A stretch of DNA of 64,000 nucleotides. Origin: Streptomyces sp. TG1A-8 (GTDB lineage: Bacteria; Actinomycetota; Actinomycetes; Streptomycetales; Streptomycetaceae). The translations under genes were made by a program, and so were the position numbers. The stretch covers positions 6,634,001-6,698,000 of the forward strand of contig NZ_JASTLB010000001.1 of assembly GCF_030499535.1 (NCBI RefSeq), read 5' to 3'. Below are positions 26,881-35,657 of the stretch, in pieces (the stretch's first letter is position 1; each line of letters begins with the position of its first letter). Under the pieces are notes generated by a model. It searched no databases. It worked only from the letters and a program-made list of their open reading frames with translations, and was not told the origin of the DNA.

Positions 26881-28275
26881 ATGACTGAGCAGACCACCTT
26901 CTCGGCGGGAGCGGCGCCCGGGGCGCTCCCTGTCGTGGGACACGCCCTCCAGATGATGCGTCACCCGGTGAACTTCATGACGTCGCTGTCGGCCCACGGC
27001 GACCTGGTCGAAATCAAGATCGGCCCCACCACGGCCTACGTCCCGACCCACCCCGAACTGCTGCGGCACGTCCTGACCAACGACCGCATCTTCGACAAGG
27101 GCGGCGTCTTCTACGACCGAGCCCGTGACATCGCCGGCAACGGCCTGGTCACCTGCCCGTTCGCCGACCACCGCCGCCAGCGCCGGCTGATGCAGTCGGC
27201 GTTCACCCGCGGCCAGCTCAAGCGTTACGCCGAGGCCATGCACGCCGAGATCGAGGACACGACGTCGCGCTGGCAGGACGGCATGGTCGTCGACGCCTTC
27301 CCGGAGATGTACGGCATGGCCCTGCGCACGGTCGGCCGCACCCTGTACTCCACCCCCGTCAGCCCCGAGATGGCGGCGCAGGTGGAACGTTCCTTCGACG
27401 TCGTGCTCAACGGCCTGTTCCGGCAGATGTTCCTGCCGGCCTCGATCCGCCGGCTGCCCCTACCGTCCCAGCGCCGCTACCGGAGCAACCTGGACTTCCT
27501 GCACGAGACCACCCAGCGGCTCATCGACGACTACCGCAGCTCCGACACCGAGCGCGACGACCTGCTCGCCGCCCTGCTCGCCTCCCGCGACGACGACGGC
27601 GGCCGGCTCGGCGACAAGGAGATCCACGACCAGGTCATCACCGTCATGGCGGCCGGCACCGAGACCGTCGCCGGTACCCTCACCTGGGTCTTCTACCTCC
27701 TCTCCCAGCACCCGGAGATCGAGGCCGCGCTCTACGACGAGATCGACACCGTCCTCGACGGCCGCGCACCTCAGTGGGACGACCTGCCGAACCTCTCCCT
27801 GGTCGACCGGATCATCTCCGAGACGCTGCGCCTGCACCCGCCGGCCTGGCTGTTCACCCGCCTCACCGCCTCCCCGACCGAACTCGCGGGCCGCCGGCTG
27901 CCCGCCGGCTCCACCGTCGTCTTCAGCCCCGCCGCGGTCGCCCAGTACGAGGACGCCTTCGACAACCCCAAGAAGTTCGACCCCGACCGCTGGCTCCCCG
28001 ACCGCATCGCGCCGGCCGCCCGCCACGCCTACGTGCCGTTCGGCACCGGTGCCCGCAAGTGCATCGGCGACCTCTACGCACGCACCGAGGCCACCTTGGG
28101 GCTCGCCACCATCCTCGGCCGCTGGCGGGTCACCTGCGAGCCCGGCATGGACATCCGCCCGGTCCCGCTGGCCACCGTCTACCACCCGCGCCGGCTGCGG
28201 CTGAGGCTGGACGCGCGCACCCCGCGCCGGACGGCCTCCGCCGTCCCCGCACCGGCCGGGGGTGACGCGGCGTGA
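26881..28275 (+). CDS. penI: Cytochrome P450 PenI/PtlI type (CYP183A): pentalenene C13 oxidation
   Basis: 464-residue P450. I-helix [11 protein letters not shown]-helix ETLRLHPP, meander [10 protein letters not shown], and heme loop [11 protein letters not shown] with the thiolate Cys. PtlI oxidises pentalenene stepwise at C13 to pentalen-13-ol, the aldehyde and 1-deoxypentalenic acid. Its stop codon overlaps the GTG of ispH as GTGA, which physically joins tailoring and MEP genes into one transcript. GAGGACCGA precedes the ATG. Confidence 0.93.
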
Positions 28276-29270
28276 GCGCGGGGAACGTCGTCCTGGCCCA
28301 GCCGCGCGGCTTCTGCGCGGGCGTACGGCGCGCCATCGGCATCGTCGAGCGGGCGCTGGACCTGCACGGGGCACCGGTGTACGTGCGCAAGGAGATCGTG
28401 CACAACCACTACATCGTCTCGGAGCTGCAAAAGCGCGGCGCGGTCTTCGTCGACAGCGAGGAGGAGGTCCCGCAGGGCGCGGTCTGCGTCTTCTCCGCGC
28501 ACGGCGTCTCCCCCGGAGTGCGCTCCGCCGCCGCCGGCCGGCAGCTCGAAGTCATCGACGCCACCTGCCCGCTGGTCTCCAAGGTCCACCAGGAAGCGGT
28601 GCGCTTCGCCCGCGACGGGCGCACCATCCTCCTCGTCGGGCACGAGGGCCACGAGGAGGTCGAGGGCGTCCTCGGCGAGGCCCCCGACCGGATCGTCGTC
28701 ATCGAGACCGAGGACGACGTACGACGCCTCGGCCTGCCCGACGACACCCCGGTCGCCGTCCTCACCCAGACCACCCTCTCGTTCGACGAGACCGAGCGCG
28801 TCGTCGAGGCCCTGCGCGCCCGCTTCACCGACCTGATCACCCCCGGCGACGACATCTGCTACGCCAGCCAGAACAGGCAGAACGCCGTCAAGGACCTCGC
28901 ACGCGACAACGACCTGGTCCTGATCGTCGGCTCGCACAACTCCAGCAACTCGCTGCGCATGGTCGAGGTGGCCCGCGATCACGGCGCCGCCGCCCATCTG
29001 GTGCCCGACGAACAGCACCTCGACGCGGCCTGGCTGGAGGACGTGTCGTCGGTCGGCATCAGTGCCGGGGCCAGTGCCCCGGAGATCCTCGTCGACGGGC
29101 TCGTCGCCCGGCTCGCCGAACTCGGCTTCGACCGGGTCGAGCTCCAGCGGGGCATCGCCGAGGACGTCGTGTTCTCCATGCCCGGCCGGCTGGCCGACCC
29201 GGTCACCGGCCGCGTCCCGCAGACACCGCTGGCCGGCGAGGTCTCGCCCGCACCCGGTGGGGCGCGATGA
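28272..29270 (+). CDS. ispH: 4-hydroxy-3-methylbut-2-enyl diphosphate reductase
   Basis: 332-residue [4Fe-4S] enzyme of the last MEP step, reducing HMBPP to IPP and DMAPP. Three cluster cysteines are C15 (PRGFCAGV), C99 (DATCPLV) and C196 (DDICYASQ). H127 and E129 (GHEGHEE) and the TQTTLS and NSSNSLRM motifs are also intact, so it looks active. Electrons must come from reduced ferredoxin/flavodoxin, and korAB-fdxA lie 3.2 kb downstream. It is very likely a second copy, since Streptomyces normally has an ispH elsewhere. GTG start with 4-base overlap to penI. Confidence 0.95.
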
Positions 29271-29299
29271 ATCCACCACTGGAGAAAGAGGACTGCGCC

Positions 29300-34356: not shown

Positions 34357-35284
34357 CCTCGCGCTCACCGCGAAGGACTTCAAGTCCGACCAGGAGGTGC
34401 GCTGGTGCCCCGGCTGCGGGGACTACGCGGTCCTCGCCGCCGTCCAGGGCTTCATGCCGGAGCTGGGCATCGCGCGCGAGAACATCGTCTTCGTCTCGGG
34501 CATCGGCTGCTCCTCCCGCTTCCCGTACTACATGAACACCTACGGGATGCACTCCATCCACGGCCGCGCCCCCGCCATCGCGACCGGCCTGGCCTGCGCC
34601 CGCCCCGACCTGTCGGTGTGGGTGGTCACCGGTGACGGCGACGCCCTGTCCATCGGCGGCAACCACCTGATCCACGCCCTGCGCCGCAACGTCAACCTCA
34701 AGATCCTGCTGTTCAACAACCAGATCTACGGGCTGACCAAGGGCCAGTACTCGCCGACCAGCGAGCAGGGCAAGATCACCAAGTCGAGCCCGATGGGCTC
34801 CCTCGACGAGCCGTTCAACCCGCTGTCGCTGGCCATCGGCGCCGAGGCGTCCTTCGTCGCGCGCACGATCGACTCCGACCGCAAGCACCTGACGGACGTC
34901 CTGCGCCGGGCCGCCGCCCACCCCGGCACGGCCCTGGTGGAGATCTACCAGAACTGCAACATCTTCAACGACGGCGCCTTCGACGCGCTCAAGGACCCCG
35001 CCACCCGCGACGGCGCCCTGCTGCGCCTGGAACACGGCAAGCCCCACCGGCTCACCCCGGACGCCGACGAGGTCGTCCACGACGTCGCGGACCCCGACCC
35101 CACCGCCGCCTTCGCCCTCTCCCGGCTGCGGCACCCGACCCCCATCGGCGTCCTGCGCGACGTACGGCGCCCCGTCTACGACCGGCTGATGGACGACCAA
35201 CTGGAGCGAGCCGTCGCCGAGCGGGGCCGGGGCGACCTGGCCGCGCTGCTGGCCGGCAACGACACCTGGACGGTCGGGGCCTGA
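34346..35284 (+). CDS. korB: 2-oxoacid:ferredoxin oxidoreductase, beta subunit (TPP-binding)
   Basis: 312 residues. TPP and [4Fe-4S] features: [13 protein letters not shown] near 21-33, [12 protein letters not shown] near 52, [20 protein letters not shown] (TPP/Mg motif) near 95-115, and [16 protein letters not shown] near 125-140. It overlaps korA by 11 bases. Together with KorA it forms the ferredoxin-reducing complex. The GK-x2-KSSP segment near residue 145 is typical of the actinobacterial type. Confidence 0.93.
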
Positions 35285-35336
35285 GCCCCCGACGAGAACC
35301 GCACACCGACAGCGACACGAACAAGAGGAAACATCC

Positions 35337-35657
35337 GTGACCTACGTCATCGCCCAGCCCTGTGTGGACGTCAAGGACAAGGCCTGCATCGAGGAATGCC
35401 CCGTCGACTGCATCTACGAGGGCCGGCGGTCCCTGTACATCCACCCGGACGAATGCGTCGACTGCGGCGCCTGCGAACCGGTCTGCCCCGTCGAGGCGAT
35501 CTTCTACGAGGACGACGTGCCCGGGGACTGGACGGACTACCACAAGGCGAACGTCGAGTTCTTCGACGACCTCGGCTCGCCCGGCGGCGCCAGCGGCCTC
35601 GGCCCGGTCGACCGCGACCACCCGCTCGTCGCCGGACAGCCGGTCCGCACGGCATGA
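35337..35657 (+). CDS. fdxA: FdxA-type 7Fe/8-cysteine ferredoxin
   Basis: 106-residue [3Fe-4S][4Fe-4S]-type bacterial ferredoxin with cysteines at 9, 17, 21, 25, 40, 43, 46 and 50 (blocks [19 protein letters not shown] and [13 protein letters not shown]). The C-terminal extension [20 protein letters not shown] is FdxA-like. AAGAGGAAA lies upstream of the GTG start. Position directly after korAB and ispG suggests it carries electrons from KorAB to IspG and IspH, and possibly to PenM or PenI; this is inference from context. Confidence 0.92.

Follow-up and report, generated by a model that had tools for sequence, protein, structure and literature searches.

Isoprenoid-precursor and ferredoxin-reduction genes behind penI in a Streptomyces pentalenolactone-type cluster: a putative partial MEP booster, eroded in related clusters

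Introduction

Why would a pentalenolactone-type gene cluster carry, immediately behind its pentalenene oxygenase gene penI, genes of the methylerythritol phosphate (MEP) pathway together with those of a 2-oxoacid:ferredoxin oxidoreductase (KorAB) and a ferredoxin (FdxA)? This string, ispH-dxs-ispG-korA-korB-fdxA, hereafter termed the block, is found in the stretch of 64,000 nucleotides of Streptomyces sp. TG1A-8 analyzed here (the window, C1:6634001-6698000, in a genome of 7.66 Mb). The pentalenolactone gene set spans gap1 (13191) to penI (28275) in the window, and six of its products exceed the NCBIfam cut-off of pen equivalogs, namely pentalenene synthase, pentalenene oxygenase, the 11-beta-hydroxylase, the D and F synthases and pentalenolactone synthase. 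By this gene content, the cluster is of the pentalenolactone biosynthetic type. Comparison of the block with the rest of the genome and with related clusters leads us to propose that it would be a pathway-specific, partial booster of the MEP pathway, with electrons supplied by KorAB and FdxA. We consider this reading reasonably probable.

Results

Gene content and junctions of the block

The string is headed by penI (26881..28275, + strand), which encodes a cytochrome P450 (NF045812, 872 bits, cut-off 800). It is followed on the same strand by ispH (28272..29270), coding for 4-hydroxy-3-methylbut-2-enyl diphosphate (HMBPP) reductase (TIGR00216, 297.5 bits, cut-off 187.85) and aligning with solved IspH. 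Then come dxs (29300..31087, +) for 1-deoxyxylulose-5-phosphate synthase (DXS; TIGR00204, 561 bits, cut-off 466) and ispG (31286..32455, +) for HMBPP synthase (NF001540, 546 bits, cut-off 345), both with solved-structure matches. korA (32452..34356, +) corresponds to the alpha (fused) subunit of a 2-oxoacid:ferredoxin oxidoreductase (TIGR03710, 629 bits, cut-off 483), and residues 13-627 of its product align with 6n2n_A, the closest solved chain. The beta subunit would be encoded by korB (34346..35284, +), whose two matches stay below their cut-offs (TIGR02177, 252 bits for 261.9; NF008820, 258 bits for 402); residues 8-209 of the 312 of KorB align with 6n2n_B, again the closest solved chain. 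Judged by alignment with this solved enzyme (6n2n/6n2o, presumably from Magnetococcus), the two proteins are the alpha and beta subunits of a KorAB-type oxidoreductase; 2-oxoglutarate and pyruvate are candidate substrates, and FdxA is a putative acceptor. Finally, fdxA (35337..35657, +) codes for a 7Fe-type ferredoxin (NF045480, FdxA_Actino, 187 bits, cut-off 125), with 2v2k as closest solved chain.

The original prediction had named these genes in this order, and NCBIfam agrees with it, KorB alone being below cut-off. The GTGA overlap that it described between penI and ispH likewise agrees with the coordinates (26881-28275 and 28272-29270). Its further statement that the same overlaps run through the whole string holds for ispG/korA (GTGA) and korA/korB (11 bases) and fails for dxs-ispG and korB-fdxA, which are separated by 198 bp and 52 bp, respectively. 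The start of dxs lies 29 bp past the end of ispH, or, should translation begin at the in-frame ATG at 29267, in an ATGA overlap with it. The overlaps suggest that penI to fdxA form a single operon, in which the two gaps would leave room for a promoter. Between 25500 and 38400, a sigma-70 promoter scan returned no site for 0.3 expected and a terminator search two sites for 2.4 expected, neither being above shuffled sequences; such promoter scans miss most Streptomyces promoters.

A feature missed by the original prediction is a remnant of ispE, the gene for 4-diphosphocytidyl-methylerythritol kinase, directly after fdxA (35658..36440, +). It was recognized from tblastn pieces and a match to GHMP_kinases_N of Pfam that stays below the gathering score (E 7.6e-4). 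The remnant carries several frame-breaking indels, has lost its 3' part and is 67% identical in DNA to the ispE found elsewhere in the genome.

Additional gene copies for part of the pathway

Each gene of the block has a further copy elsewhere in the genome, and the block genes are therefore extra. At the DNA level, the second ispG is 97% identical over the match, the second korAB 82% with a tail at 72%, the second dxs 74-78% and the second ispH 69%, and two further fdxA genes reach 88% and 81%. At the amino acid level, identity to the other copies is 54% for IspH, 60% for DXS and 81/76% for KorA/KorB. The values for IspH and DXS rule out that the block in its entirety was recently duplicated from its own genome; only the body of ispG is recent. 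The extra precursor genes stand beside terpene genes on the same strand, and no MEP gene was found in the 9 kb around the genome's other korAB.

The middle of the pathway is absent from the block. dxr and ispF have one match each in the genome, and IspD-type genes four, two of them strong; all lie outside the window. The block thus doubles the entry step, catalyzed by DXS, and both Fe-S steps, those of IspG and IspH, the middle steps not being doubled. The view of the block as a self-contained booster, or as a self-contained MEP pathway, has to be abandoned, given the location of the dxr, ispD and ispF matches and the broken ispE.

Recurrence among pentalenolactone-type clusters

Searching GTDB genome contigs with PenA yielded 35 loci (L numbers below), of which L036 and L037 were dropped, having a PenA of 50% and 48% identity and lacking the pen set. 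The 33 retained loci, three more from a sample of 392 genomes of the genus (L155-L157) and the window make up a set of 37 clusters. In the genus sample, PenA matched in 13/392 genomes at 1e-100 and passed the cut-off in 10/392; these 13 include the window, six genomes taken to duplicate loci already named, G270 (L158), which is not a pen cluster, G187, whose contig is as long as that of the dropped L037, and G311, which was left out of the set. A gene was counted as intact when one tblastn stretch covered at least 93% of it (90% for ispE) with no stop. As L014, L020, L024 and L028 are cut by the end of a contig and the ispG of L021 contains an N run, intact counts are lower bounds there; the apparent ispG break of L021 is this N run and was not scored as decay.

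In 26 of the 37 clusters, penI is followed by the block or some trace of it. The order penI-ispH-dxs-ispG-korA-korB-fdxA, for which the original prediction had proposed a genome search, indeed recurs, and all six genes from ispH to fdxA are intact in three clusters (window, L025 and L156). The arrangement is therefore neither unique to this strain nor a peculiarity of this cluster, the ispH-dxs-ispG part being found in other kinds of clusters too. Over the 37 clusters, ispH is intact in 19, dxs and ispG in 16 each, fdxA in 14, korA in 4, korB in 3 and ispE in 2. The korA of L019 is intact by our rule, yet the match to its opening residues lies in a different frame. Leaving ispE aside, korAB is the part most rarely kept. 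Long open ispE frames follow fdxA in L033 (315 codons) and L013 (317 codons).

In several clusters, deletion scars are all that is left. Remnants of ispH end at different places (residues 1-27 in L005, 1-63 in L010, 1-143 in L003), and deletions join, among others, ispH to dxs in L019 and korA to korB in L033. The loci bearing these scars are free of N. Because the breakpoints differ in N-free loci, the deletions would have struck one ancestral string independently, and we read the present loci as descendants of an operon penI-ispH-dxs-ispG-korA-korB-fdxA-ispE, eroded repeatedly.

The protein distances of the block genes follow those of penI, with a Mantel r of 0.937 for ispH (n=19), 0.945 for dxs (n=16) and 0.854 for ispG (n=16), values that none of 2000 permutations equaled in any of the three cases; for fdxA, r is 0.740 (n=14) and 2/2000 permutations were as high. 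In a FastTree tree of five pen proteins, block-bearing clusters stand on both sides of the midpoint root (L024, L028 and L030 versus the rest), this rooting serving for orientation only. Altogether, this suggests that the block was inherited with the pen cluster. By automatic call, 17 of 24 other loci retain the four-base overlap of penI and ispH. Reading the junction in the frame of ispH reveals it in L012, L026, L028 and L156 as well; it is absent from L013, L016 and L030. Since the same order recurs and the overlap is kept in 17/24, order and overlap are more than chance.

Selection was estimated with NG86 ratios of nonsynonymous to synonymous substitution rates (dN/dS) on selected loci, with 3 to 28 pairs per gene. 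The means are 0.14 for ispG, 0.19 for korA, 0.27 for ispH, 0.29 for korB, 0.32 for dxs and 0.36 for fdxA, to be compared with 0.19 for penA and 0.31 for penI. Single pairs go up to 0.69 for ispH and 0.62 for dxs.

Gene conversion in ispG

The high identity of the two ispG genes of this genome is confined to a tract of 977 bp (31376..32352, +), which has only 4 mismatches (973/977 identical) to the housekeeping copy at G000:C1:2088770-2089879 (L060). Identity falls to 63% over the first 90 bases of ispG and to 62% in the last comparison window of the gene. Such a sharp-edged tract of near-identity between diverged paralogs of one genome is the mark of gene conversion at ispG. In 13 other genomes, some with partial copies, the block ispG and the other ispG differ by 7-24% over the tract in 12 cases and by 3% in L012. 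The housekeeping gene stands in the order dxr, rseP, ispG, two GNAT-like genes and proS, names given partly by reading.

The direction of conversion would be from the core gene to the block, with moderate support. Over its first 90 bases, the window ispG matches the block copies of L033, L013 and L009 at 97.8% identity, against an average of 61.7% for non-block copies. In a maximum-likelihood tree built on this tract, the window ispG and the housekeeping gene of the same genome form a pair (100/99) that lies outside the clade (91/92) uniting nine block copies. The block copies do not form one clade in this tree (7 label changes, 6 of them forced by starred branches, for a shuffled mean of 13.0), which fits repeated conversion and could also hide separate origins. 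Stretches of near-identity are also shared by non-block ispG copies within other genomes: G402 (800/801 sites, both copies cut by contig ends) and G417 (95.7%).

The pen cluster of S. jumonjinensis (L030, 1922-16651; also L098) is flanked as at the core ispG locus, with a 5' fragment of ispG together with dxr and rseP upstream and GNAT-GNAT-proS downstream. An insertion of this cluster into the housekeeping ispG was considered and the claim dropped, a run of 10 N lying exactly at the upstream junction. The junction is uncertain because the N run and the near-identical ispG copies invite misassembly.

The ispH-dxs-ispG trio outside pen clusters

Block-type IspH (E up to 1e-130) is present in 13/392 genomes of the genus, six times in pen clusters (G000, G088, G133, G138, G253 and G378) and seven times elsewhere. 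The order ispH, dxs, ispG is found in six of the seven latter cases (L148-L153), and ispH and dxs are apart in L154; the ispH match of G363 has one in-frame stop. According to open reading frame (ORF) reading, the neighbors in L148-L150 and L152 are nonribosomal peptide synthetase (NRPS)-like, crotonyl-CoA-reductase-like, carrier-protein and transporter genes. By the same reading, L151 seems to have halogenase and P450 genes, with fdxA after ispG, and L153 transporter genes beside the ATP synthase operon. A further trio, in the genome of L028 (L097), has glycosyltransferase-like genes nearby and likewise adjoins the ATP synthase operon.

Among 394 genomes of the class, five match at 1e-125, two of them outside the genus and one of these (L174) with ispH, dxs and ispG. 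In L174, ORF reading places ispH, a polyprenyl-synthase-like gene, dxs, ispG and a UbiA-like membrane gene close together, perhaps in a terpenoid cluster. Neither korA nor korB gave a match in ten non-pen neighborhoods of 17-20 kb each (L097, L148-L154, L174 and L175). By these comparisons, ispH-dxs-ispG resembles a portable supply unit; korAB resembles an addition, so far encountered in the pen context alone. Plasmid spread was considered and rejected, one distant IspH match (Nocardia, 56.5%) appearing among 72,556 records (E up to 1e-80).

Other genes of the cluster

Upstream of penI, the cluster contains penM (16045..17241, +; pentalenolactone synthase P450; NF045816, 779 bits, cut-off 700), penH (18656..19507, +; 1-deoxypentalenic acid 11-beta-hydroxylase; NF045813, 601 bits, cut-off 550), penE (21965..23719, +; pentalenolactone D synthase; NF045818, 1207 bits, cut-off 1100), penD (23732..24652, +; pentalenolactone F synthase; NF045815, 601 bits, cut-off 550) and penA (25789..26859, +; pentalenene synthase; NF045811, 724 bits, cut-off 675). 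penB (24655..25662, +, start approximate) is a polyprenyl, probably farnesyl, diphosphate synthase gene by PF00348, its NF041169 and NF045549 matches being below cut-off. An open frame with high third-position G+C on the opposite strand (17787..18272, -) is a penR-like regulator gene, which by its look we take to belong to the MarR family. Convergent with the block, a single frame (36461-37699, -) carries a methyltransferase and a NUDIX domain and is possibly a fusion. At the far end of the set, gap1 (13191..14255, +; TIGR01534, 405.7 bits, cut-off 367.2) encodes a glyceraldehyde-3-phosphate dehydrogenase (GAPDH), likely a self-resistance isozyme, in line with the role as resistance gene given to gap1 in the accessible parts of PMC11727764 and PMC10301674.

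Discussion

A partial booster with its own electron supply?

In the booster that we propose, DXS would add capacity at the entry step, from pyruvate and glyceraldehyde 3-phosphate, and IspG and IspH at the two final reductive [4Fe-4S] steps. DXR, IspD, IspE and IspF would be supplied by the copies elsewhere, chosen steps being strengthened rather than a whole pathway. KorAB would convert a 2-oxoacid, CoA and oxidized ferredoxin into acyl-CoA, CO2 and reduced ferredoxin, and together with the 7Fe FdxA would most likely keep IspG and IspH reduced during production. The block would probably be translated together with penI through the four-base stop/start overlap. In evolutionary terms, an ancestral string of eight genes would have lost parts by lineage, ispG being rewritten here from the housekeeping copy. 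That KorAB and FdxA would feed IspG and IspH is a plausible proposal; FdxA may also serve P450s, because fdxA survives without ispG in L017 and L035. A bolder form of the proposal would make the cluster the owner of a MEP electron generator, in which KorAB reduces FdxA for the cluster's own IspG and IspH, supply is uncoupled from housekeeping redox, and an eroded eight-gene module has had its ispG repaired by conversion from the core gene. We put this form forward tentatively, being somewhat inclined to doubt it.

Several observations weigh against the proposal. korAB appears dispensable, with korB intact in 3/37 clusters and korA in 4/37 by our rule, L019 included, and 11/37 clusters are without any trace of the block. 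The pairing of ferredoxin with ispG is loose, fdxA being kept without ispG in 2/37 clusters (L017 and L035) and ispG without fdxA in 5/16. One fdxA pair has a dN/dS of 1.19, the highest of 27 pairs, and the 198-bp gap between dxs and ispG could hold a promoter. From the literature, FdxG/FprD is described as suiting pentalenene oxygenase in the consulted part of PMC12967844, which leaves the partner of FdxA open. In favor of the proposal stand the results above on gene families, further copies, recurrence of the string, distances to penI, dN/dS, the penI/ispH overlap, the body of ispG and the trio elsewhere. PMC6902898 moreover lists dxs among the MEP bottlenecks, ispG and ispH not figuring in that list.

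Part of these data would fit another role for KorAB and FdxA, namely to support the P450s PenI and PenM or the redox balance in general, the boost of isoprenoid supply then being left to dxs, ispG and ispH alone. P450s need a redox partner, fdxA stands about 100 bp after penI in L017, where the MEP genes are gone, L035 keeps it without ispG, and fdxA is retained in 14/37 clusters versus 3/37 for korB. On the other hand, ispG and fdxA are present in all five clusters in which korA is intact or near-complete but frameshifted (window, L013, L019, L025 and L156), fdxA follows ispG in the non-pen L151, a locus that also has P450-like genes, and PMC12967844, as far as its consulted part goes, gives pentalenene oxygenase partners of the FdxG/FprD type. 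We regard this role as unlikely. One would also wonder whether the block is an outgoing passenger, ancestral, contributing little and still there through inertia and through recombination among copies of ispG. The losses and scars in many lineages, the dead ispE of the window and the 11/37 clusters with no trace point that way; six open frames with a mean dN/dS well below 1, the retained penI/ispH overlap and the housekeeping-like body of ispG point the other way, and we give such inertia little credit.

Another hypothesis starts from the product itself: as pentalenolactone inhibits GAPDH, DXS would drain the accumulating glyceraldehyde 3-phosphate into product, and the block would mainly handle this substrate. 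The presence of gap1 in the cluster and the use of glyceraldehyde 3-phosphate by DXS, which is established biochemistry, speak for it. So does the competitive inhibition by glyceraldehyde 3-phosphate of pentalenolactone binding to GAPDH, mentioned in the accessible part of PMC11727764. However, a drain leaves ispG, ispH, korAB and fdxA unexplained, and L027 and L157 keep ispH and ispG without dxs, which makes it very improbable in our eyes.

Comparison with known systems

Terpenoid clusters with their own MEP or mevalonate genes (phenalinolactone, furaquinocin) and hopanoid-type dxs-ispG pairs are examples of precursor genes inside a cluster. We know of no 2-oxoacid:ferredoxin oxidoreductase in clusters of the phenalinolactone/furaquinocin or hopanoid type. 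The two-subunit 2-oxoacid:ferredoxin oxidoreductase 6n2n/6n2o and the 7Fe ferredoxin 2v2k resemble the KorAB/FdxA set of the window, which differs from such systems in that it adjoins ispG inside an antibiotic cluster. The trio clusters L097 and L148-L153 share the ispH-dxs-ispG order of the window, and L151 also its fdxA, but differ from it by their NRPS-, MbtH-, ABC-, glycosyltransferase- and halogenase-like neighbors (ORF reading) and by the lack of any korA-korB match.

The published pentalenolactone clusters (ptl, pen, pnt and pll) have gap1 and the pen biosynthetic genes in common with that of the window. A cluster of 10 ORFs and 12.9 kb, organized like pnt, is described in the available part of PMC8659275. 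No cluster MEP, kor or fdxA gene appears in the available parts of PMC8659275, PMC11727764, PMC12967844 and PMC10301674, the original ptl and pen/pnt descriptions being outside this scope, so that an earlier description is possible. Counts of the terms MEP, deoxyxylulose, dxs or methylerythritol were zero in the available text of PMC8659275, PMC11727764 and PMC12967844. In the searchable literature, which did not extend to the primary cluster papers, no account that links pentalenolactone clusters to ispH, ispG or dxs was found among the papers listed; two reviews, on semiochemicals and on volatiles, contain both pentalenolactone and ispH as words, and PMC12860625 and PMC12453296 both pentalenolactone and methylerythritol.

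Significance

The recurrence of the string suggests that a cluster boundary drawn at penI cuts off part of an ancestral unit. The related clusters, with different parts missing, constitute a natural deletion set for the worth of each part to the titer, and the trio found in NRPS-like, halogenase/P450-like and glycosyltransferase-like clusters offers a search marker for isoprenoid-containing products. In engineered MEP pathways, the reductant of IspG and IspH is a recognized weakness. If our proposal is true, the natural coupling of 2-oxoacid-driven ferredoxin reduction to the entry step and both Fe-S steps would offer a design worth learning from, and it would help to identify the physiological electron donor of IspG and IspH in actinobacteria.

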